This document shows, in pieces, positions 5,718 to 53,786 of a stretch of 64,000 bases of DNA. The DNA comes from Bacteroidales bacterium. GTDB taxonomy: Bacteria; Bacteroidota; Bacteroidia; Bacteroidales; UBA932. Within the stretch, counting starts at the first letter, position 1. Every line of letters begins with the position of its first letter. Below the pieces are notes generated by a model, which made no database searches, was not told where the DNA came from, and worked only from the letters and a program-made list of their open reading frames with translations. The stretch is taken from positions 238,499 to 302,498 of the forward strand of contig JAGBAO010000008.1 of the NCBI GenBank assembly GCA_017938925.1. The letters are read 5' to 3'. A program made the position numbers and the translations under genes.

Positions 5718-6797
5718 ATGAACTCTGCACAACTTTCAGAAATCGTTTCAGCTTTCCAGATTGAGGGAAAAGTCGAGTCCATCGAATCTCTCGGAGCGGG
5801 ATTCATCAATGACACATTTGTCATCAGGACCTCGGAAGGGACGCCTGATTATATTCTTCAGAGGAAGAATCACCTTATATTTCCTGACGTTCCAGGCATG
5901 ATGGACAACATCAAGGCTGTCACTCATCATATAAAATCCAAGGTGCAGGACCCTCTGCGTGAGACTCTCACGGTCATTCCGGCAAAGGACGGAAAGCTCT
6001 ATGTGGAGAAGGACGGTAACTTCTGGGCTGTGTGCCTGTTCATTCCAGGCAGCATGAGCTATGAGCGTGCACAGACACCAGAGCTTGCATACCAGGGCGG
6101 AGTGGGAATAGGACAATTCCAGACCTTGCTTGCAGACTTTGATGAGTCTCTGAACGAGACTATAAAAGGATTCCATAATATAAGATGGCGTTTCTGCCAG
6201 TGGGACGAAACCATTAAGGCTGATCCTGTCGGACGAGTGGCGGAAGTACAGGAGGAAATCAGCTGGATAGAGTCCAGACGCGAACAGATGCTGGCATTCT
6301 GGTCCCTTGTTGAAGACGGAACCATTCCCACAAGAGTCACCCACAACGACACCAAGATCAGTAACATTCTCTTCGACAAGGAAAGCGGAAAGGTGCTCTG
6401 CGCAATCGACCTGGATACCGTCATGAGCTCCACTTCACTGAACGATTTTGGAGATGCGATCCGCTCATATGCCAATACGGGAGCGGAAGACGATAGGAAC
6501 CTTGACAACGTAGAACTTGATATCAATATGTTCCACGCATATACAAGCGGCTATCTTTCACAGCGTTATGACACACTGACTCCAAGCGAACTGGAGTGGC
6601 TTGCCTTCTCGGCAAGATACATAACATACGAGCAGGTCCTGCGCTTCCTGATGGACTACATCGACGGTGACAAGTACTACAAGACCGCCTATGCAGAGCA
6701 CAACCTCGTGAGAACACGTGCTCAGTACAAGCTGCTTACCAGTATGGAGCGCCAGTACGAGCACATGTGCAGAATAATCAGGGAATACCGGAAATAG
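5718..6797 (+). CDS. APH-fold phosphotransferase, N-acetylhexosamine kinase-like
   Basis: This 359-residue kinase of the aminoglycoside phosphotransferase/choline kinase fold shows the Brenner-type catalytic loop THNDTKISNILFD (about residues 210-222) and the metal-binding IDLDTV that replaces DFG. The N-terminal lobe has GAGFINDTFVI, matching the nucleotide-binding loop of NahK-like sugar kinases. In Bacteroidota such proteins are often called N-acetylhexosamine 1-kinases or simply aminoglycoside phosphotransferases; the substrate cannot be read from sequence, and a sugar is more likely than an antibiotic. It starts 4 bp after dnaE and ends 3 bp from the convergent EEP gene. Confidence 0.8.
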   Translation: MNSAQLSEIVSAFQIEGKVESIESLGAGFINDTFVIRTSEGTPDYILQRKNHLIFPDVPGMMDNIKAVTHHIKSKVQDPLRETLTVIPAKDGKLYVEKDGNFWAVCLFIPGSMSYERAQTPELAYQGGVGIGQFQTLLADFDESLNETIKGFHNIRWRFCQWDETIKADPVGRVAEVQEEISWIESRREQMLAFWSLVEDGTIPTRVTHNDTKISNILFDKESGKVLCAIDLDTVMSSTSLNDFGDAIRSYANTGAEDDRNLDNVELDINMFHAYTSGYLSQRYDTLTPSELEWLAFSARYITYEQVLRFLMDYIDGDKYYKTAYAEHNLVRTRAQYKLLTSMERQYEHMCRIIREYRK

Positions 6798-14101: not shown

Positions 14102-15327
14102 ATCAACATATTTATCGCCCTATCAAGGCACTTTATGAAATATTCAGCTTCCTCCATGGTGTTGTAAGGTGCAAAAGATGCCCTGAGCATGCCGGTAACC
14201 CCCATCCTGTCCATCAACGGCTCAGCGCACATCTGTCCTGACCTCACTGCTATTCCCATCTTATCCAGAATCAAGGCCAGATCCTCATGATGAACACCTT
14301 CTACGATGAAGGAGAATAACGAAATCTTCTCCTGGTTTGTTCCACGAGGAACACCGAAGATCCTTATCCTTGAATCCTCAGACAAAGCCTTGAAAATGTA
14401 ATCTCTTATCGCGTCATTATAAGATATTAAATGATTATCATTCAATAACTTAATATATTCCAAAGCAGGCTTTAGAGTTGCAGCTGAAGCAAAGTTCTGA
14501 GTTCCCGCCTCGTACTTCATCGGAAGCGGCGCATAAGTGGTTTCAGCGAAACTTACAGTTCCGACCATCTCTCCTCCACCCATATATGGCGGCATTGCCT
14601 CAAGCCATTTCTTCTTTCCGTACAGCACCCCTGTTCCTGTAGCAGCATATAACTTATGACCTGAAAAGACATAGAAATCGCAGTCCAGATTCTGCACATC
14701 AACATTGCAATGAACTGCACCCTGAGCCCCATCTACAAGCACAGGAACATTCACGGAGTGGCATTTTTGAATGATTTCCCTGACAGGATTCACAAGTCCG
14801 AGGACATTTGAAATATGAGTAACTGCAACGATACGGGTCTTCTCATTCAGAATATCATCCAGTCTTTCAAGCATGAGATGACCGCTGTCATCAACCGGCA
14901 GAACCCTGAGAACAGCACCCTTGCGCCTGCACATCATCTGCCATGGAACTATGTTTGAATGATGCTCAGCCTCAGTTACAACCACCTCATCGCCCTCTTT
15001 CACAAATGCTTCACCGAAACAGAAGGCAACGAGATTTATCGCTGCAGTCGTACCGGAAGTAAAGACTATCTCTTCACGATATTCCGCATTCAGAAACTCT
15101 CTGACCGCATCACGAGCCTCCTCATAAGCCTGAGTAGCCTCATCAGCCATCCTATGCACTGCCCTATGGATATTGGCATTTGACTCAGAGGTGATCCTGT
15201 TCCACATATCAATGACAGACTGAGGTCTCTGACTGGTTGCAGCGTTGTCAAGATACACAAGATCCTTTCCGTACACCTTCCTGGAAAGTGCCGGAAACAT
15301 CCCTCGTATTTCTTTGATATCTGCCAT
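14098..15327 (-). CDS. sufS: Cysteine desulfurase SufS
   Basis: This PLP-dependent enzyme removes sulfur from cysteine to form a persulfide for Fe-S cluster building. Visible motifs are YLDNAATSQRPQSV, TEAEHHSNIVPWQ, the PLP-lysine string FSGHKLYAATGTGVLYG, and the catalytic-Cys loop RSGQMCAEPLMDRMG. I use the ATG at 15327 (MADIKEIRGMFPALS, 409 residues, the family norm). The frame is open upstream to 15393 with other possible starts. No sufB, sufC or sufD is adjacent; the upstream neighbour is divergent ruvA. Confidence 0.95.
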   Translation of the reverse strand: MADIKEIRGMFPALSRKVYGKDLVYLDNAATSQRPQSVIDMWNRITSESNANIHRAVHRMADEATQAYEEARDAVREFLNAEYREEIVFTSGTTAAINLVAFCFGEAFVKEGDEVVVTEAEHHSNIVPWQMMCRRKGAVLRVLPVDDSGHLMLERLDDILNEKTRIVAVTHISNVLGLVNPVREIIQKCHSVNVPVLVDGAQGAVHCNVDVQNLDCDFYVFSGHKLYAATGTGVLYGKKKWLEAMPPYMGGGEMVGTVSFAETTYAPLPMKYEAGTQNFASAATLKPALEYIKLLNDNHLISYNDAIRDYIFKALSEDSRIRIFGVPRGTNQEKISLFSFIVEGVHHEDLALILDKMGIAVRSGQMCAEPLMDRMGVTGMLRASFAPYNTMEEAEYFIKCLDRAINMLI

Positions 15328-16053: not shown

Positions 16054-16089
16054 CAATAAAAGTGTTCCACGTGGAACACTTTTATTGTT
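16052..16089. promoter_or_regulatory. parS-like centromere site in a perfect 38-bp palindrome
   Basis: TGTTCCACGTGGAACA at 16063-16078 differs from the common bacterial ParB-binding consensus TGTTTCACGTGAAACA only by symmetrical changes. It sits at the centre of a perfect 38-bp palindrome (arms 16052-16070 and 16071-16089) between convergent ruvA and mnmG, so it could also stop transcription from both sides. Confidence 0.75.
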
Positions 16090-16119: not shown

Positions 16120-18213
16120 TTATCTACCGAAATAAACCAGCAGTACAGAGATGTCAGAAGGTGACACACCTGAGATTCTCGAAGCCTGGGCTATAGTGCG
16201 AGGCGCATACTTCTTCAATTTCTGACGACACTCTATCGACAGGCTCTCCACCCTGTCAAAATCAAAGTTTTCCGGAATAGAAAGATTCTCAAGGCGCATT
16301 ATCTTATCCGCCAGCTGCCTCTCCCTCTCTATATATCCCTTGTACTTAAGAGCAATCTCAGAAGAATCCAAAATTTCCTTTCTATAATTGGAATCAACTT
16401 TCTGAGCCATAAACTCACTATCAAGATCAGCGGTCGGATACTCTGTATTATATTGGAGAACGAAAGCGGCATCTAAATATGATATCGAACTTGTCGCATT
16501 AAACTTCCCCTTAAGAGACTCCTTATTGCCATACATTAACAGGTCAGAGTACTCAACTCCATCAGACAACAAAGATGATAAAGGAGATGCAAATTCGTTA
16601 TCTATATTATTCTTTAAAAATGTTCCACGTGGAACTAAATCAAACAATTCAGACAATTTGACCTGCGGGCGGGAAATAAGAGCAGAAAGCCTGGTCCTGC
16701 ATGATATTTCAGAAGTAGAAACTGAAGAAAGATAATCATTGACAGATTCTGGTCTGACTGATACTTCTTCAAAGAATTGATTGAATTTTTCAACGGATTC
16801 ATACTTGCGACAAGTATAGTCATATCTGAACTTGTCAGCAAGACCTGCATTATATGAGAGTCCGGTGAGGCGTAGATCTGCATTATCCTGCCTTAAAAGA
16901 ATCCTGTACTCTGCTCTTGACGTGAACATTCTATACGGTTCATCCACACCCTTTGTAATAAGGTCATCAATGAGGACTCCGATGTAAGCCTGGTCTCTCT
17001 TAAGGATAAAAGGATCCTTTCCTGCAACCTTAAGATGAGCGTTCATTCCTGCTATAAGACCCTGGGCAGCTGCCTCTTCATATCCTGTCGTTCCATTGAC
17101 CTGACCAGCCAGGAAAAGTCCTTCTATATTCTTCAGTTCAAGGGTCGGCTTGAGCTGTGTCGGATCGAAATAATCATATTCAACAGCATAGGCAGGACGA
17201 TATACCTTAGCATTTTCGAGTCCTTTGATCGCATGCAGAGCATCCATCTGAACGTCCAACGGAAGCGATGAAGAAAATCCCTGAAGGTAATATTCATTTG
17301 TTCCCCTACCCTCGGGTTCAAGGAAAAGCTGGTGCTCTGTCTTGTCGGCAAAGGTCCTCAACTTGTCCTCAATGCTCGGGCAATAACGTGGTCCGATTCC
17401 TGTGATTAGTCCGGTAAATAACGGAGAATCATTGAAACCGGTCCTTAGTATATCATGCACCTTCTCATTCGTGTGGACTACAAAGCAAGGCATCTGAGGA
17501 GTACCGTTCTGCGCAGTGGACAGATATGGAAGGTAAGAGAACTTATCAGGATCTGAATCTCCGAACTGCTGGACAAGAGTTGAAGTATCGACAGACGAAA
17601 TATCGATTCGAGGCGGAGTGCCTGTTTTCATTCGGGCAGTAGAAATTCCCATATCCACCAGCTGGCGGGTCAGACCATGAGACGGGAGTTCTCCAATTCT
17701 TCCCCCTTCAAACATAGTGCGACCGATGAACATCCTGCCATCAAGGAAGGTTCCGGCAGTTAGAATAACTGTCTGAGAATTGAAAATTGCACCGGTAGTT
17801 GTACATACGCCCGAGATTTTTGATTCTCGGAAAAGAAAACTGGTCACAGTATCCTGGTAAATATCTAATTTACAGGCACTTTCAAGTATTTTTCGCCAGT
17901 ATAGTGAAAATTGTATTTTATCACACTGTGCACGAGGACTCCACATGGCAGGTCCCTTTGACCTGTTGAGCATTCGGAACTGGAGAGTGGAAGCATCCGT
18001 GACTATGCCGGTGTACCCGCCTAACGCATCTATCTCTCTGACAATCTGACCTTTAGCAATTCCACCAATAGCCGGATTGCATGACATCTGACCGAACTTG
18101 TTCATATCCATTGATATCAAAAGTACGGAAGATCCCATCCTTGAAGCGGCCATCGCAGCTTCACAGCCTGCATGACCACCTCCGACTACAATCACATCAT
18201 AAGTCTTCTGCAT
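16120..18213 (-). CDS. mnmG: tRNA uridine-5-carboxymethylaminomethyl modification enzyme MnmG
   Basis: This FAD protein works with MnmE to modify the wobble uridine of several tRNAs. It opens with the Rossmann motif [23 protein letters not shown]. It has [24 protein letters not shown], then [23 protein letters not shown], and ends in the MnmG C-terminal helical domain (YEGYIERE-like [11 protein letters not shown]). At 697 residues it is about 70 longer than usual. The extra part seems to be the Ser/Asn-rich region near residues 526-595, which begins at the internal parS-like site. An in-frame ATG 9 bp upstream is also possible; the start used sits just past the ybeY stop. Confidence 0.94.
16621..16636. 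promoter_or_regulatory. Second parS-like site, inside mnmG
   Basis: TGTTCCACGTGGAACT matches the first site at 15 of 16 positions. It encodes VPRGT (about residues 526-530) in mnmG on the minus strand. It lies 558 bp from the first site. Close pairs of parS sites near the origin are typical of chromosomal partition systems. Confidence 0.65.
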
Positions 18214-18214
18214 A

Positions 18215-18634
18215 CTAAACAAGTTCCCTTAATGAAAGATAGTAATTTTCCTTTGCCCTCATCTGAGCGATGTCTTCATCACAGTGATCATCATAACCTA
18301 TGAGATGAAGAAGACCATGGACAATGACTCTGTTAAGTTCATCCTTGAACTCAGTTCCATACTCATGTGCATTTTCACGAACAGAATCTACGCTGATGAA
18401 AAGGTCTCCGGAAAGCCTGTCACCTTCACAATAATCGAATGTTATTATATCCGTAAAGTAATCATGCTGAAGATAGCGCTGATTGACATCAAGAATATAG
18501 TTATCAGAGCAGAAGATGATCGAAATATCCCCTATCCTGCGGATTTCACTTTCCGCTACAAGACGGAGCCACTTATTGTTAATGGTTTTCCCTTTGAATA
18601 TGAAATCTGTGTCCTCGAAGTAGTATGAAATCAT
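18215..18634 (-). CDS. ybeY: Endoribonuclease YbeY
   Basis: The 139-residue metalloprotein carries the UPF0054 signature [19 protein letters not shown] (about residues 103-121), whose histidines bind zinc. YbeY matures 16S rRNA 3' ends and takes part in ribosome quality control. Its stop lies two bases before the mnmG start, so the two probably form an operon. A TAGATTTG box lies upstream on this strand. Confidence 0.95.
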
Positions 18635-20766: not shown

Positions 20767-21546
20767 TTAGTCGTGAAGCTTAGCTGAGAGGAACTCGCGG
20801 TTCAGACGGGCAATGTGAGTCACTGTAACGTGCTTAGGGCACTCCATCTCACAAGCCTTGGTGTTTGTACAAGCACCGAAGCCGAGTTCGTCCATCTTCG
20901 CAACCATCGCCTTAGCACGTCTTGCTGCCTCAACCTTACCCTGTGGGAGAAGTGCGAGAGAGCTTACACGAGCTGCAACGAAGAGCATTGCAGAACCGTT
21001 CTTACAAGTTGCAACACATGCACCGCAACCTACGCAGGCTGCTGCGTCCATGCTCTCCTCAGCGTCAGCCTGAGGGATTGGAATAGCGTTTCCATCAGGA
21101 ACTCCGCCTGTTCCGACTGATACATATCCACCTGCCTGGAGGATCTTGTCGAATGCCTGACGGTCCACAACGAGGTCCTTGATCACAGGGAAACCTGCAC
21201 TTCTCCAAGGCTCGATTGTGATTGTGTCGCCATCCTTGAACTTACGCATGTGGAGCTGGCATGTAGTAACCTCATCGTCCGGTCCGTGTGCACGGCCGTT
21301 GATGTAGAGTGAACATGCACCGCAGATACCCTCACGGCAGTCGTGGTCGAATGAAACCGGACCACTGCTCTGGCATCCCTTCTCGACAGCTACCGGATCT
21401 ACACCCTCAGCGATAAGCTGCTCATTGAGGATATCGAGCATCTCGAGGAAAGAGCTGTCAGAGGATATATTCTTGACCTGATAGGTCTCAAAATGTCCTT
21501 TTGCCTTGGCGTTTTTCTGACGCCATACTTTCAATGTCAAATCCAT
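20767..21546 (-). CDS. sdhB: Succinate dehydrogenase/fumarate reductase iron-sulfur subunit
   Basis: The 259 residues hold all three cluster ligand sets: the [2Fe-2S] loop [18 protein letters not shown] with a later TTCQLH, the [4Fe-4S] motif [11 protein letters not shown], and the second ferredoxin motif [12 protein letters not shown]. It passes electrons between the flavoprotein SdhA and quinone through a membrane anchor. It directly follows sdhA with a 5-bp gap. In anaerobic Bacteroidales the complex usually works as fumarate reductase (frdB). Confidence 0.95.
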
Positions 21547-21551
21547 GTCAA

Positions 21552-23498
21552 TTAGTCTTTATAGTTTCTGGTAGCTATCTTGATGTTCTCGTATACGAGT
21601 GGCTCCTTGTGGAGTTCAGGCTCAACGCCTTCACCCTTGTATTCCCAAGCCGCTACATACATGTAGTTCTCGTCGTCACGCTTGGTCTCACCCTCTTCTG
21701 TCTGCATTTCTTCACGGAAGTGACCTCCGCAAGACTCGTTACGGTTGAGTGCGTCGCGTGCCATGAGCTCGCCGATTTCGAAGAAGTCAACAAGGCGGAG
21801 AGCCTTCTCGAGCTCCTGGTTGAAGTGGCTGTTCTCACCTGCTACATATACGTTCTTCCAGAAGTCTGCCTTGAGAGCCTGGATAAGCTCGATAGCCTTC
21901 TTCAGACCAGCCTCGTTACGTGCCATACCTACATACTCCCACATGATGTGTCCGAGCTCCTTGTGGTATGAATCCACAGACCTCTTTCCCTTCACTGCGA
22001 AGAGCTTCTCGATCTTCTCGACAACTGCCTTCTCAGCCTCAGCGAATTCAGGTGCATTGACGTCTGTCTTAGGCTCCTTGAACTTGCCTGCGAGGTAGTC
22101 GCCGATAGTGTATGGGAGGATGAAGTAACCGTCTGCAAGACCCTGCATGAGGGCAGATGCACCGAGACGGTTTCCACCATGGTCAGAGAAATTGGCCTCA
22201 CCGATAGCGTAGAGACCTGGAACTGTTGTCTGGAGGTTGTAGTCAACCCAGATACCACCCATAGTGTAGTGGATAGCAGGGTAGATCATCATAGGCTCCT
22301 TGTATGGATCCACGTCTGTGATCTTCTCATACATCTGGAAGAGGTTACCATATCTTGCTGCGATAACATCCTTTCCGAGACGCTCGATGGCTGTCTTGAA
22401 GTCAAGGAACACTGCAAGTCCTGTGTTGTTCACACCGTAACCTGCATCGCAACGCTCCTTTGCTGCACGTGAAGCCACGTCACGAGGAACGAGGTTTCCG
22501 AATGCAGGGTAACGACGCTCGAGATAGTAGTCGCGATCCTCCTCAGCGATGTCAGAAGGCTTCTTTGTACCTGCGCGGAGAGCCTTTACATCCTCCATCT
22601 TCTTAGGTACCCAGATACGTCCGTCGTTACGCAGAGACTCTGACATAAGGGTTAGCTTGGACTGCTGGTCGCCGTGTACAGGGATACATGTAGGGTGGAT
22701 CTGTGCGAAGCAAGGGTTTGCGAAGAATGCTCCCTTCTTGTAGCACTGCCAAGCTGCTGAACCATTTGAGTTCATTGCGTTGGTAGAGAGGAAGTAAGCG
22801 TTTCCGTAACCACCTGTTGCGATAACGACAGCGTGTGCTCCGAATCTCTCGATCTTTCCTGTCACGAGGTTTCTTGCGATGATACCCTTTGCCTCACCGT
22901 TGATGAGGACTACATCGAGCATCTCGTAACGAGGATAGCTCTTCACTGTGCCGGCAGCGATCTGACGGTTCAGGGCTGCATATGCACCGAGAAGGAGCTG
23001 CTGTCCGGTTTGTCCGCGGGCGTAGAAGGTACGACTTACCTGCGCACCTCCGAAAGAGCGGTTGGCGAGAAGTCCGCCGTATTCCCTTGCAAAAGGAACA
23101 CCCTGTGCAACGCACTGGTCGATGATAAGGTTGCTGACCTCGGCAAGACGATAGACGTTTGCCTCGCGTGCACGATAGTCTCCTCCCTTGATTGTGTCGT
23201 AGAAGAGACGATAGACAGAGTCGTTGTCGTTCTGGTAGTTCTTAGCGGCATTGATACCACCCTGTGCTGCGATAGAGTGAGCACGACGAGGTGAGTCGCT
23301 GATGCAGAACACCTTCACATTGTAGCCAAGCTCTCCGAGTGAAGCAGCTGCAGACGCTCCACCGAGACCTGTTCCCACAACAATGACTTCGAGTTTTCTT
23401 TTGTTGCCAGGGCTGACAACACGGATCTGAGATTTGTGCTTTGTCCATTTCTCGGCCAAAGGACCCTCAGGAATCTTAGAAATAAGTTTTTCGGCCAT
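21552..23498 (-). CDS. sdhA: Succinate dehydrogenase/fumarate reductase flavoprotein subunit
   Basis: The 648-residue FAD subunit shows the dinucleotide fold [19 protein letters not shown]. It also has the FAD-linking histidine context [15 protein letters not shown], active-site sequence [11 protein letters not shown] and the C-terminal [21 protein letters not shown]. The in-frame sequence upstream of [12 protein letters not shown] (ATG at 23498) is unlike the family and is excluded. The cytochrome b anchor gene, normally just upstream in this phylum, is absent: only ~170 bp separates this start from ruvB. Confidence 0.95.
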
Positions 23499-23593
23499 TT
23501 TATAGTGATTAAATGAAATTTCGGGCACAATTATAATGAAAATCGGCCGATTTAGCAATTAAATCAGCCGATTACCTATTATTTATGATAGGG

Positions 23594-23670
23594 ATTCCCG
23601 ATCAGGTCGGGAATGACGCTAAAAATTTGTCGAAAATGATGCAGGAAATTTATCAGGAATGACGCTAAAA
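23594..23670. repeat. Small palindrome and 15-bp direct repeat between ruvB and sdhA
   Basis: ATTCCCGA (23594-23601) and TCGGGAAT (23607-23614) form a perfect 8-bp hairpin. GGAATGACGCTAAAA occurs twice, at 23610-23624 and 23656-23670. The second copy contains the ruvB stop codon (CTA on this strand). The GGAATGAC ends recall the TGTCATTC-type palindrome at 11.1 kb. Confidence 0.55.
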
Positions 23671-24693
23671 CAGTGTAGGATCGTCGAGATTGATATTTCC
23701 CTTTTCCAGGCCGAGATGCCTGTAGGCAAGTTCGGTCACTTCCCTGCCCCGCGGCGTCCTCATGATGAATCCCTCCTTGATCAGGAACGGTTCATACACC
23801 TCTTCAAGAGTACCCTGGTCCTCACCCACTGCCGTTGCAATGGTATTCGCCCCCACAGGACCTCCCTTGAACTTCGTGATTATTGTCTTAAGTATCTTAT
23901 TATCAATTGCATCCAGTCCCCTCTTGTCTATATTCAGGGCATCAAGGGCATAGCGTGCTATCTCCAGATCGATGACACCGTTGCCCATGACCTGAGCAAA
24001 GTCACGCACACGACGCAGAAGCGAGTTGGCGATACGAGGCGTGCCACGGCTTCTAAGAGCTATTTCATACGCTGCATTCTGGTCTATTTCTACCTTTAAT
24101 ATATTTGCGCTTCTCTTGACAATGTTCACAAGGGTCATGGTGTCGTAATATTCCATGGCGCATGTTATACCGAACCTGGCCCTAAGAGGTGAAGTCAGCA
24201 GACCGCTTCGCGTGGTTGCTCCGACCAAAGTGAACGGATTTAGTGAAATACGCACTGAACGTGCTCCCGGCCCCTTGTCTATCATTATATCTATTACAAA
24301 ATCCTCCATCGCGGAGTACAGATACTCCTCCACAACCGGAGAAAGCCTGTGGATTTCGTCGATGAACAGCACGTCCCCCTCCTCCAGCGAGGTCAGAAGT
24401 CCGGCAAGATCACCCGGCTTGTCAAGAATAGGTCCGGATGTTACCTTCATATTCACTCCCAACTCATTTGCTATGATGTGCGCGAGAGTGGTCTTTCCAA
24501 GTCCCGGAGGGCCGTGAAACAGGACATGATCAAGAGACTCCCCTCTCATCCTGGCCGCCGCCACGAAAATCTTGAGGTTCGCCACTATCTTGTCCTGACC
24601 GGTAAAGTCTTTAAGGTCCTGCGGACGTATTATTCCGTCCAAATCCTTATCTTTGCCATCGTTGATGTTATGGGGATCGAAATCAGTCGTCAT
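23665..24693 (-). CDS. ruvB: Holliday junction DNA helicase ATPase RuvB
   Basis: This 342-residue AAA+ motor has [11 protein letters not shown], Walker A in [15 protein letters not shown], Walker B in [20 protein letters not shown], sensor/arginine-finger region [19 protein letters not shown] and a C-terminal winged helix ([12 protein letters not shown]). It drives branch migration with RuvA. The ATG at 24693 ([11 protein letters not shown]) gives the standard length; nine in-frame codons lie upstream. The gene faces away from mfd across the AT-rich origin candidate. Confidence 0.96.
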
Positions 24694-24700
24694 GCTCAGC

Positions 24701-24992
24701 TCAAAAATAATTATATACAAATATATATTATATTTTTAAATTTTAATGATGATTATATCGCTGTTGATATGTTGATAACTCAAAAATACATCTGATTATC
24801 AATATGTTGTATGTGCGATATCTGTTGAAAAGGCTGGTGTGAATTTCTTTGAAAAATGTTGATTGAAAATTTTGAAGATATTTATCTCTGCCGTAATATA
24901 CGGACTTGCGGATTTTGCCAATTTAGTTTTCATTTGATTTCAACAGGGTTTTCAACCGGTTATCAACAGAAAAATTGTTGATATGTTAATAA
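24701..24992. other. oriC: Candidate chromosomal replication origin (oriC)
   Basis: An almost purely A/T stretch (about 24701-24757) could be the unwinding element. Next to it are exact TTATCAACA/TGTTGATAA nonamers at 24770-24778 and 24960-24968. One-mismatch versions occur at 24762-24770, 24796-24804, 24823-24831, 24976-24984 and 24984-24992. TTATCAACA differs by one base from the E. coli DnaA box TTATCCACA. The region lies between divergent ruvB and mfd. Genes to the right are almost all rightward to 56 kb, genes to the left are mixed, and two parS-like sites lie 8 kb away. dnaA itself is not in the window, so this is inference. Confidence 0.6.
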
Positions 24993-27900
24993 GTTCGAAA
25001 TCCATAAACCTTCTATCGGAAAAACTGGATTCCTGTGATGAGGTATTCTGCAGCGGACTCTTTCTGTCCGCCCGCTGGTTTGTCGTGTCCCAGTTGGATT
25101 ATGACGGAATCCAGCTGATTGTCCTTCCTGACAAGGAGTCTGCGGAGTATTGTGCGGCGGATCTTTACAATCTTGTTGAAGGTGACTGCGTGTTCTTCCT
25201 TCCTGACTCGGGAAAGAAGTTGGAAAGAAGCAATTACAAGTCAACTCTCGGGGTGCAGAGGACATCCGCAATCGGAAAGATTCTTGATTACAAGGAGGGG
25301 AGACTGATAGTGGTAACTTATCCTTCCGCTATCGAGGAGGGAATTCCGTCGGAGGTCAAGATCAGGGAATCTCTTCTTAAACTGACTATAGGGGATGAGA
25401 TAAGCCGTGACGAGATGGTTGATAAACTTTTCGGAAGCGGATTCGAAAGGGTGGATTTCGTGTCGGAACCGGGACAGTTTGCTGTCAGAGGAGCCTTGGT
25501 TGACATATTTTCATATTCCTATAGCGATCCGTTCCGAATATCCTTCTTCGGAGATGAAATAGAGACCATCAACATATTCGACTGCAACACCCAGCTGTCC
25601 AGGGAGAAGGTCATCACAGCTGAAATATACCCCGACCTTATAGCATCAGAGCAGGAGGATGCAACTGCGAACATCGCCGATATTCTTCCGGATGAAGCCC
25701 TCATATGGCTGGATTCGTCCGATATGTACAGGAACATGGAGTTCTTCAGGACCTTCGAAAGATTCAGAAGGGTCTATATGGAACTTCCTCTTTCCCGTCA
25801 GAATGAGGAATCAGTACGTTTCAACATATCTCCACAGCCCGTATTCAACAAGAATTTCGAACTCCTGACAGAGGATATTCGCAAGCGTCTGGAAGAGGGA
25901 TACAGGGTGAGAATCTATGGTGAAAAGCAGTCGCAGCTGGAGAGGCTCAGTTCCATTCTTTCGCAGAACGGAGCCATCCTGCCAGAATTTGTCCAGGGAA
26001 GGAACCTTCACAACGGATTCATTGACCATGACGACAAGGTCTGCTGCTACAGCGACCATGAGATATTCGACCGTTTCCACCGCGTAAGCATAAGAAGGAC
26101 AGTAGATAAGAGCGAACAGCTTACCATCAATGACCTGACTTCGTTTGCGATAGGAGATTACATTGTCCATATAGACTATGGAGTGGGAATCTTCGGAGGA
26201 CTTGTCAGAATGAAGGACGACAAGGGAAGGATGCATGAGGTGGTCAAGCTTACATACAAGGACAACGACGTCGTGTTTGTGTCCGTGCATGCACTTCATA
26301 AGATATCACGTTATAAATCAAAGGATTCCGAGCCTCCTAAGATCCATAAGCTGGGATCGAAGGCATGGCAGAACCTGAAGTCAAGCACAAAATCCAAGGT
26401 CAAGGACATAGCGAAGGATCTCATTCAGCTGTACGCAAAGAGAAAGAGTGCGAGAGGATTTGCCTTTTCTGCTGACACCTATCTCCAGCAGGAGCTTGAG
26501 TCTTCGTTCATGTATGAGGACACTCCGGATCAGGAGAAGGCCGTATATGCCGTAAAGCGGGATATGGAGGATGATTGTCCTATGGACAGGCTTGTGTGCG
26601 GAGATGTGGGATTCGGAAAGACGGAAGTGGCAGTCAGGGCTGCGTTCAAGGCAGTTGCCGACAGCAAGCAGGTGGCCGTTCTTGTTCCTACCACCATTCT
26701 TGCCCTTCAGCATTTCAAGACGTTCCAGAACCGTCTCAAGGACCTTCCCTGCAATGTGGACTATGTCAGCCGTCTGAGGACAGCAAAGGAGATATCCGAC
26801 ATTCAGAAACGTCTGAAGGCCGGAACCCTTGATATTGTCATCGGCACTCATAAACTTATAGGTAAGGGATTCGAGTTCAAGGATCTGGGACTTCTCATCA
26901 TTGATGAGGAGCAGAAGTTCGGAGTGAGTGCAAAAGAGAAGCTCCGTCAGCTCAAGGCTTCAGTGGACACTCTTACCCTGACAGCTACCCCGATACCGCG
27001 AACCCTCCAGTTCTCTCTTCTGGGAGCACGCGACCTCTCGATAATAAATACGCCTCCGCCTAACAGGATTCCGGTACAGACCGAGATTATGCTTTTCGAT
27101 CATGATGAACTCAAGAACATCATAAAGTATGAACTGAGCAGGGGAGGACAGATATTCTTCGTCCATAACAGGGTGGAGGAACTCCAGTCCATCCATGATA
27201 TCCTTCACAGGCTTGTTCCTGACATGAAGATATGTGTGGCTCACGGCCAGATGGAGGCGAAAGTGCTGGAAAACAAGATTCTGGACTTTATGGCAGGGGA
27301 TTATGACATGCTGCTCTGCACCACGATCATCGAGAACGGACTTGATATTCCAAATGCGAACACTATAATCATCAACCAGGCTCAGAACATAGGTCTCAGC
27401 GATCTTCATCAGCTTCGCGGCCGAGTGGGACGCTCGAACAAGCGTGCATTCTGCTATCTGATGGTTCCCCCTCTTGTGTCCATAACAGATGATGCCCGCC
27501 GCAGGCTTAAAGCCATAGAGTCGTTCTCCGATCTTGGCAGCGGATTCAACATAGCAATGCAGGACCTCGATATCCGTGGAGCCGGAAACCTCCTTGGAGC
27601 CGAGCAGAGCGGATTCATAACCGACATGGGATTCGAGACATATCAGAAGATCCTTGCGGAGGCCATGGAGGAACTGGGAATGGAAACAGGAATATCCACA
27701 AAGAGGTCGGATGAATCGTTTGTGCCTGACTGTACCATAGAGACCGATCAGCTGGCCCTGATACCGGACACATATATAGACATGACCGCGGAGAAGATAA
27801 GGATATACAAGGAACTTGATTCCCTCACTTCCGACAAGGATATGGACCAGTTGAAAAAGAAGCTTGAGGACAGGTTCGGTCCTATGCCTGAGGAACTCAA

Positions 27901-28168
27901 GAGGCTCTTTGATATAGTAAGGATCAGGCAGCTGGGACAGAAGCTGGGATTTGAGAAGATCATAATAAAGAACGGAGTGATGATAGCGTTCTTCATTTCC
28001 AATCCGCTTTCACAGTATTACAAGACAGACCGCTTTGCAAAGATCCTTGAAAATGTGAGTGTCAATCCTAAACTGTTTGAACTCAAGCAGAACGACAGCA
28101 AGCTGAGGATATTCTCAAGAAATGTGGACGGTATAGCCAAAGCATACGAGGTTTTGAAGAGGTTATAG
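24983..28168 (+). CDS. mfd: Transcription-repair coupling factor Mfd
   Basis: The 1061-residue translocase removes RNA polymerase stalled at DNA lesions and recruits UvrA. N-terminal UvrB-like domains are followed by the RNA-polymerase interaction domain (GDYIVHIDYGVGIFGG). Next comes the helicase core with Walker A GDVGFGKTEVAVRAAF, Walker B DEEQKFG, and TATPIPRTLQFSLLGARDLS. HQLRGRVGRSNKRAFCYL and a C-terminal TRCF domain complete it. It is slightly shorter than E. coli Mfd (1148). Its start lies inside the DnaA-box cluster. Confidence 0.96.
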   Translation: MLISSKSINLLSEKLDSCDEVFCSGLFLSARWFVVSQLDYDGIQLIVLPDKESAEYCAADLYNLVEGDCVFFLPDSGKKLERSNYKSTLGVQRTSAIGKILDYKEGRLIVVTYPSAIEEGIPSEVKIRESLLKLTIGDEISRDEMVDKLFGSGFERVDFVSEPGQFAVRGALVDIFSYSYSDPFRISFFGDEIETINIFDCNTQLSREKVITAEIYPDLIASEQEDATANIADILPDEALIWLDSSDMYRNMEFFRTFERFRRVYMELPLSRQNEESVRFNISPQPVFNKNFELLTEDIRKRLEEGYRVRIYGEKQSQLERLSSILSQNGAILPEFVQGRNLHNGFIDHDDKVCCYSDHEIFDRFHRVSIRRTVDKSEQLTINDLTSFAIGDYIVHIDYGVGIFGGLVRMKDDKGRMHEVVKLTYKDNDVVFVSVHALHKISRYKSKDSEPPKIHKLGSKAWQNLKSSTKSKVKDIAKDLIQLYAKRKSARGFAFSADTYLQQELESSFMYEDTPDQEKAVYAVKRDMEDDCPMDRLVCGDVGFGKTEVAVRAAFKAVADSKQVAVLVPTTILALQHFKTFQNRLKDLPCNVDYVSRLRTAKEISDIQKRLKAGTLDIVIGTHKLIGKGFEFKDLGLLIIDEEQKFGVSAKEKLRQLKASVDTLTLTATPIPRTLQFSLLGARDLSIINTPPPNRIPVQTEIMLFDHDELKNIIKYELSRGGQIFFVHNRVEELQSIHDILHRLVPDMKICVAHGQMEAKVLENKILDFMAGDYDMLLCTTIIENGLDIPNANTIIINQAQNIGLSDLHQLRGRVGRSNKRAFCYLMVPPLVSITDDARRRLKAIESFSDLGSGFNIAMQDLDIRGAGNLLGAEQSGFITDMGFETYQKILAEAMEELGMETGISTKRSDESFVPDCTIETDQLALIPDTYIDMTAEKIRIYKELDSLTSDKDMDQLKKKLEDRFGPMPEELKRLFDIVRIRQLGQKLGFEKIIIKNGVMIAFFISNPLSQYYKTDRFAKILENVSVNPKLFELKQNDSKLRIFSRNVDGIAKAYEVLKRL

Positions 28169-52924: not shown

Positions 52925-52979
52925 CGGGGATTGAAGGGGCCATGAACAAATTTTTATTAACCCTTAAAAGGATTTGTTT

Positions 52980-53786
52980 ATGGCTAAGATTTTTGTAAAA
53001 GAGTCTGAGATCACAGTTCTCAGCATGAATGAAAATGATTACATTTCATTGACCGACATCGCCAAGCATAAGAGCGATGAATCTTTTATTGTAATCTGCA
53101 ATTGGATGCGCAATCGTAATACGATTGAATACCTCGGAATCTGGGAAACATTGTTCAATCCGGATTTTAAACCTATCGAATTCGATAGGTTTAAAAAAGA
53201 GGCAGGACTGAATGCCTTTACTCTTTCTCCTCAGAAATGGATAAACTCTACTAATGCGAAAGGTATAGTCACTCGTTCCGGGCGTTATGGTGGCACCTTT
53301 GCCCATAAGGACATAGCATTTAAGTTCGCTAGCTGGATTTCTGTCGAATTTGAACTTTATATGGTCAAGGAGTTCCAACGCCTGAAGGAGCATGAGGCAG
53401 AGAAACTGGGCTGGAACGCCAGGCGAGAACTCGCGAAGATCAATTACCATATCCATACCAGCGCAGTCGGCCGGCATCTTGTTCCGCCAAAGGTCACTGC
53501 TGATCAGATACGGTATGTCTATGCTTCTGAGGCCGACATGCTGAATGTCGCGCTGTTCGGTGTGACTGCCAGACAATGGCGGGAAGCCAATCCTGACCTT
53601 GACGGCAATATCCGTGACTATGCCTCGATCAATGAACTGATCTGCCTCTCGAATATGGAAAGCATGAACTCCGTGCTGATAGAGGAAGGCCTGTCTCAGT
53701 CGGATCGTCTTGTACGGCTGAATGAAATGGCTATCCGTCAGATGGAGATATTGTCCGGATCTGGCAGTCGCGACCTCCTTAAATGA
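52980..53786 (+). CDS. KilA-N domain protein
   Basis: The 268 residues open with a KilA-N DNA-binding domain (about 15-130): MNENDYISLTDIAKHK, WMRNRNTIEYLGIWE and GRYGGTFAHKDIAFKFASWISVEFELYMVKEFQRLK. A C-terminal helical region follows (LNVALFGVTARQWREANPDLDGNIRDYASINELICLSNMESMN). KilA-N proteins derive from phage antirepressors and are also common in Bacteroidales chromosomes, often without a prophage. Here no phage genes are near. A TTG two codons earlier is possible; the ATG is preferred. The coding sequence contains a perfect 32-bp palindrome, and related half-sites cluster just downstream. Confidence 0.88.
   Translation: MAKIFVKESEITVLSMNENDYISLTDIAKHKSDESFIVICNWMRNRNTIEYLGIWETLFNPDFKPIEFDRFKKEAGLNAFTLSPQKWINSTNAKGIVTRSGRYGGTFAHKDIAFKFASWISVEFELYMVKEFQRLKEHEAEKLGWNARRELAKINYHIHTSAVGRHLVPPKVTADQIRYVYASEADMLNVALFGVTARQWREANPDLDGNIRDYASINELICLSNMESMNSVLIEEGLSQSDRLVRLNEMAIRQMEILSGSGSRDLLK
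53165..53196. promoter_or_regulatory. Perfect 32-bp palindrome inside the KilA-N gene
   Basis: The 16-base arm TTTTAAACCTATCGAA is followed directly by its exact reverse complement. It encodes FKPIEFDRFK in the sense strand, and the same peptide would be read on the antisense strand. CCTATCG half-sites recur at 53954-54043. It is a possible autoregulatory operator. Confidence 0.5.

Follow-up and report, generated by a model that had tools for sequence, protein, structure and literature searches.

The intergenic region between the divergent ruvB and mfd genes is predicted, with high confidence, to be the chromosomal origin of replication (oriC) of an uncultured Bacteroidales bacterium related to Candidatus Cryptobacteroides. 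Judged from sequence, the site is very probably an ordinary DnaA-type oriC, and its place is new for the lineage as far as we have seen. The original prediction had named the same intergenic region, and this reading is supported by features computed here: the conservation of an array of DnaA boxes in 72 relatives and nine other genera, a break in T over A asymmetry, a parS site nearby, and a dnaA gene without a box cluster.

The window analysed in this study, a stretch of 64,000 nucleotides, is the last 64 kb of the 302-kb contig C5 in a draft assembly of 34 contigs (2.67 Mb, 92% complete). The Mfd that it encodes shares 91% identity with Mfd of a Bacteroidales metagenome-assembled genome (MAG) from sheep colon and 68-77% identity with Mfd of six records named Candidatus Cryptobacteroides. 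We take the host family to be UBA932 of GTDB. The known source of its relatives is animal-gut metagenomes, and these relatives seem to be mostly uncultured. The true start of ruvB is likely the ATG ending at 24693, residue 10 of the 351-aa open reading frame (ORF), and the alignments of relatives to this ORF start at its residues 1-13. As predicted, gene direction switches at the intergenic region and stays rightward for more than 30 kb; the rightward run of ORFs taken as genes extends over 31.5 kb (24983-56464) and depends on our choice among overlapping ORFs. At about 53 kb, a rightward ORF with a KilA-N domain (52974-53786; PF04383, 4.2e-21) lies amid housekeeping and outer-membrane genes and is overlapped by a leftward ORF without a Pfam match.

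Table 1 Features of the proposed origin and its surroundings (positions in the window)
Feature	Position	Strand	Basis or remark
Proposed oriC	24694..24992	.	From likely ruvB start codon to first mfd codons
ruvB	23665..24720	-	NF000868, 2.7e-152; ORF opens with TTG
mfd	24983..28168	+	TIGR00580, 1.4e-283
A/T-rich stretch, proposed DNA unwinding element	24707..24757	.	Composition and nearest-neighbour energy
DnaA-trio-like element	24740..24757	-	Six A-centred trinucleotides, separated from left box pair by 4 bases
Left DnaA box pair, 8 bp apart	24762..24778	-	ATATCAACA (one mismatch) at 24762-24770 and exact TTATCAACA at 24770-24778
DnaA-box-like TTATCAATA, one mismatch	24796..24804	+	Few relatives keep box
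DnaA box TTTTCAACA, one mismatch	24823..24831	-	About -160 from mfd; retained in 35/73
Weak box ATTTCAACA, two mismatches	24937..24945	+	Rightward site 1 of 3, spacing 11-12 bp
Weak box TTTTCAACC, two mismatches	24949..24957	+	Second of three rightward sites
Exact DnaA box TTATCAACA	24960..24968	+	Third of three rightward sites
Right DnaA boxes	24976..24992	-	ATATCAACA at 24976-24984 and TTATTAACA at 24984-24992, one mismatch each
Perfect parS TGTTCCACGTGGAACA	16063..16078	.	Between ruvA and mnmG; sole exact copy in assembly
parS-like, one mismatch	16621..16636	.	Within mnmG
parS-like, one mismatch	14338..14353	.	Within SufS-family cysteine desulfurase gene
mnmG (gidA)	16120..18222	-	TIGR00136, 6.3e-238

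We counted two exact and five one-mismatch copies of the DnaA box TTATCAACA within the 231 bp from 24762 to 24992, in agreement with the two exact and at least five one-mismatch copies predicted in about 230 bp (Table 1). None of 5000 dinucleotide shuffles of 24721-24992 reached seven boxes (shuffled mean, 0.34), and the ruvB-mfd gap was the densest place for boxes in the 64-kb window. The box count of the whole window (24 versus 17.6 expected) was matched by 11 of 100 shuffles, so it is the clustering of the boxes rather than their number that is unusual. Out of 31 exact boxes in the 2.67-Mb assembly, the only pair less than 1 kb apart was that of the ruvB-mfd gap, together with its copy on contig C13. 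The window thus has the non-coding box cluster of a DnaA-dependent oriC, with its last box extending into the first mfd codons.

The first 20 kb of C13 (56 kb) matched the window, from position 22000 onward, at 99.45% identity, and 411 bp around the proposed origin were 100% identical. Judged by its 56-kb size, C13 continues past the end of C5, and it is probably a second strain in the bin. A contig edge 1.46-2.67 kb upstream of mfd, equivalent to about 22300-23530 of the window, was found in 21 of 77 named loci. It falls in a flavoprotein gene of the sdhA/frdA type (21552-23558; succinate dehydrogenase/fumarate reductase), in which C13 starts too, and these edges are probably assembly breaks in a gene common to strains.

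The array was conserved among relatives. Out of the 77 named loci fetched, 74 contained the mfd start and were analysed (three lacked it), and ruvB was missing from the contig in two of these. The contigs of the other 72 named relatives reach ruvB, and in all of them the gene is divergent from mfd across a gap of 203-324 bp (ruvB start extrapolated), and every gap contained three to seven boxes, with a mean of 4.8 versus a shuffled mean of 0.29. The observed numbers were reached by 2 of 2880 shuffles. Among control windows of 280 bp elsewhere in the loci of the relatives, one of 4451 had three boxes, and none of the 100 with at least 66% A+T did. The box places also recurred. With at most one mismatch and the window included, boxes were found near -23 from mfd in 47 of 73 sequences, near -160 in 35, near -214 and -222 (the two places of the left pair, within 2 bp) in 42 and 22, and near -34 and -46 (the places of the second and first weak boxes) in 33 and 20, although the sequences share ancestry and these counts are hence not independent.

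Beyond the named relatives, we collected 30 further loci of the family from 19 other genera, of which 17 were left uncounted (ruvB absent, cut, or starting at the locus edge). All 13 loci showing the region upstream of ruvB (nine genera) had four to seven boxes. In locus L264, ruvB and mfd read in the same direction, and in L269 they are convergent; the array stood at the 5' end of ruvB in both. L264 (genus g95) also carries a long inverted repeat (ACTACCTTCAGGAAC ... GTTCCTGAAGGTAGT; 5880-6000) just past the last boxes upstream of ruvB, and its mfd match (G252:C44:100102-103137) has a TGA and a TAA inside. Among other families of the order, no array of at least four boxes was found at mfd (28 loci; 77 genomes searched) or within 600 bp of the 5' end of ruvB on its upstream side (28 loci). 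We therefore rejected order-wide conservation, and the ruvB-mfd place looks family-specific as far as sampled. A looser group was present some 1.2 kb upstream of ruvB in one locus of another family (L224, genome G104): three one-mismatch boxes occupy 37 bp there, and another two lie within 290 bp. These five boxes sit in an A/T-rich stretch (L224:3677-3963) and are possibly the origin of that family, again on the ruvB side.

The rightmost box (24984-24992) overlaps codons 1-4 of mfd and was the most widely kept: 64 of 73 sequences carry it with no more than one mismatch, and it reads TTATTAACA in 39 and TTATCAACA in 22. Codon usage beneath it was constrained: the leucine at codon 2 was TTA or TTG in 64 of 65 cases (8.3 expected from the remainder of the gene), and the isoleucine at codon 3 was ATA in 69 of 72 (37.7 expected). 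Since unrelated causes often make the codons at the N terminus A/T-rich, we regard this test as supporting only.

Such a box would also suit a promoter region at which DnaA serves as a transcription factor for these repair genes (mfd and/or ruvB), in a chromosome that begins replication elsewhere, an explanation to which its place over the mfd start, the constrained start codons, and the divergent promoters that the ruvB-mfd gap must contain all lend something. We nevertheless regard it as unlikely. The array stays at the 5' end of ruvB even in L264 and L269, in which ruvB and mfd are not divergent neighbours, the mfd and ruvB loci sampled from other families do without four or more boxes, and the promoter explanation leaves unexplained the T/A break, parS, and the trio-like element beside the A/T stretch that are described below. 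DnaA may control the mfd and ruvB promoters in addition to a role of the region as oriC.

The region contains an easily melted A/T stretch adjacent to the boxes, as expected of an oriC. The original prediction had placed a nearly pure A/T stretch beside the boxes, and we found 91% A+T at 24707-24760. By nearest-neighbour energy, only one other 50-bp stretch of the window is less stable than that at 24708. On the minus strand, the stretch next to the left box pair carries A in the middle of successive trinucleotides. The pattern of a basal unwinding system (BUS), three or more NAN trinucleotides no farther than 16 bp from a box, was present, with six trinucleotides after a spacer of 4 in the window; they read 5'-AAT/CAT/CAA-3', not the canonical 3'-GAT-5'.

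Runs of this kind arise easily in A/T-rich DNA, and the run length in the window was equalled by 26% of shuffles. Since that test is weak, we used the phase of the A's across relatives instead. With one of the 73 sequences dropped by the pair criterion, 72 remained (the window plus 71 relatives). In these, minus-strand A occurred at positions 6, 9, 12, 15, and 18 past the box with frequencies of 0.82-0.97, compared to mean frequencies of 0.36 and 0.38 in the other two phases. All five phased A's were present in 47 of 72 sequences versus 3.3 expected, and in 0 and 3 sequences for the neighbouring phases. The fixed phase among relatives is a stronger sign of a trio-like element than the run length. 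We also consider, as a speculative and rather doubtful extension, an origin whose variant trios (3'-TAA/TAC-5' versus 3'-GAT-5') are conserved in constant phase beside the tandem pair, and whose rightmost box within the mfd codons would let DnaA assembly directly gate expression of Mfd, the transcription-repair coupling factor, in step with initiation.

Strand asymmetry was analysed by scoring T/A and G/C at fourfold sites per ORF, including a gene-strand term, and scanning for the best break. ORFs were chosen mechanically, breaks were set between ORF midpoints, and the permutation tests ignore the correlation among neighbouring genes. The genomes comprised that of the window (G000), the relatives G013, G016, and G150, and two single-contig relatives (G204 and G210). 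T over A on the plus strand was negative in 18 of 20 genes left of the ruvB-mfd boundary and positive in 16 of 23 genes to the right. The best T/A break fell exactly at this boundary in the own contig (C5:263875; window interval 23379-27555; 0/200 permutations) and in G013 (417398; interval 417398-419132; 0/200). In G016, the best break (196603; 3/200) lay 5 kb from the boundary, and its interval (178660-201465) has the boundary, 201465, as its upper limit. In the 2,229,011-bp genome of G204, sampled in 40 stretches, a one-origin model fits, with its best origin at the boundary (671625; profile interval 646864-671625; 0/100) and its best terminus at 1934063, the return switch lying near 1.93 Mb. 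No T/A signal was found in G150 (185/200), whose best break at 251543 adjoins its cluster near 250100, and T/A was not significant in G210 (45/100), where the best fit was opposite in sense.

The original prediction had expected a switch at silent sites in both T/A and G/C; the T/A part stands, and the G/C part does not. Fourfold G/C breaks were not significant in the own contig (101/200), G150 (103/200), G016 (17/200, best 375853), or G013 (8/200, best 50275), and with the best breaks of G013 and G016 elsewhere, we rejected fourfold G/C skew as evidence in the own contig. In G204, the fourfold G/C break was significant (3/100), with the best origin at 662948 and a wide interval of 644-1126 kb. 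In G210, it was significant too (1/100), with a break at 8.9 kb (7.3-9.9 kb) that lies about 7 kb from the cluster at about 16.3-16.6 kb, the interval stopping 6 kb short of the cluster; the sampled raw GC-skew sum of this genome had its minimum at the stretch ending at 16500, adjoining the cluster. Raw GC skew in the window rises past about 24 kb, but it is confounded by gene direction. Two reductase genes at 20767-23558 have fourfold G over C of 0.49 and 0.58 on the plus strand and are C-rich in gene orientation, so that G/C skew beside the proposed origin is distorted. A skew minimum elsewhere in the chromosome had been named in advance as evidence against the site. With the own chromosome in 34 contigs, we looked for one in relatives: the T/A switch agreed with the site in G013 and G204 and came near it in G016, and G150 and G210 gave none.

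Dense good boxes without dnaA nearby would also be expected of a DnaA titration site of the type named datA, which merely sequesters DnaA. We consider this very improbable for the ruvB-mfd cluster, as a titration site would not switch strand asymmetry here and has no need for an A/T stretch with periodic A beside a tandem box pair.

A parS palindrome near the origin is characteristic of ParABS systems, and mnmG (gidA), next to the perfect parS of the window, is often found near bacterial origins. Where two parS-like sites had been predicted about 8 kb to the left of the boxes, we found one perfect and two one-mismatch sites (Table 1), the exact parS lying 8.9 kb from mfd. Exact parS sites were present in 107 of 198 genomes of the family and absent from 91, including G013, G016, G150, G204, and G210. 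Among the matches listed, which covered 55 of the 107 genomes, parS was on the mfd contig in 45, always upstream of mfd, and on another contig in ten; one genome with two sites, one of them on another contig (G110), was counted within the 45. The distance from parS to the edge of the mfd match in these 45 genomes was 6.6-42.6 kb, with a median over sites of 11.2 kb.

All 101 genomes of the genus searched encode DnaA. As predicted, dnaA is not near the boxes: the single dnaA of the own genome is on another contig (C1:138284), and in G204 and G210 the gene lies about 595 kb and 1.04 Mb from the cluster. No cluster was found in the surroundings of dnaA (about 3.5 kb) in 20 relatives, where the densest 300 bp had at most two boxes; the 16.5 kb surrounding the gene in the own genome lacked one as well, with a single box in the densest 300 bp. 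We therefore rejected dnaA as the origin. On contig C1 of G210, six additional open frames (249-263 aa) match the DnaA domain and are presumably of the IstB-like ATPase kind.

These data also bear on the idea that replication begins near dnaA or elsewhere, with the cluster being a chance product or a relic in an A/T-rich gap. T/A was uninformative in two of six genomes, and dnaA of G210, at 1.63 Mb, is close to the non-significant best T/A break of that genome at 1.66-1.70 Mb. We nevertheless find this idea extremely improbable, given the shuffles and the A/T-rich control windows, the box positions recurring in 72 relatives, the dnaA regions without a cluster, and, in G204, a dnaA at 76.6 kb that is far from the fitted rising switch.

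For the preferred reading, an oriC at ruvB-mfd, we infer the following course of initiation from the layout of the sites. The exact boxes would be bound first by DnaA, and the weaker boxes would be filled next, those at the mfd start and the rightward series with its 11-12 bp spacing among them. A DnaA filament starting at the left tandem pair would then reach the minus-strand trio-like element and open the A/T-rich stretch at 24707-24757. Helicase loading would be followed by two forks, one leaving through ruvB towards the parS/mnmG side and the other through mfd, and ParB at parS, about 9 kb away, would segregate the new origins.

Knowing the oriC would allow growth rate to be read from coverage peaks and MAGs to be oriented and checked, and an oriC far from dnaA is a caution against using dnaA as an origin marker. 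The conserved trio-like element offers a simple test of how far the Bacillus unwinding mechanism reaches into Bacteroidota. Among the titles and abstract openings of the papers listed, we found no origin at ruvB-mfd or in Cryptobacteroides, and DoriC or subscription papers may already list the site.

In oriC of E. coli, an A/T-rich unwinding element adjoins a box, and weak sites of the same direction are about 11 bp apart. The window likewise has an A/T-rich element by a box and weak same-direction sites 11-12 bp apart, and it differs in its consensus (TTATCAACA versus TTATCCACA in E. coli) and its flanking genes. The BUS of B. subtilis is described as two DnaA boxes plus DnaA-trios (PMC6669920, PMC8287927); the window resembles it in the tandem pair, the 4-base spacer, and the A-centred trinucleotides on the strand bearing TTATCAACA, whereas its putative trios are 5'-AAT/CAT/CAA-3' instead of 3'-GAT-5'. 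A Hi-C study of 12 mouse-gut bacteria, two of them Bacteroidetes, placed origins by parS clusters and GC skew and reported that the origin was not systematically together with dnaA (PMC10197239). In the family of the window, parS likewise marks the side of the chromosome with the proposed origin. The mouse-gut work relied on Hi-C, read coverage, and a parS consensus with two mismatches (PMC10197239); we counted exact sites only and found one or two of them per mfd contig in our 45 genomes. According to a Prevotella paper citing DoriC, oriC is commonly far from dnaA in Bacteroidetes, and the predicted oriC of Prevotella intermedia OMA14 has multiple DnaA boxes at one of two chromosome transition points, away from dnaA (PMC4755523). 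The multi-box locus of the window is likewise at a strand transition and not near dnaA. It differs from that of OMA14 in being the ruvB-mfd locus of an uncultured family.
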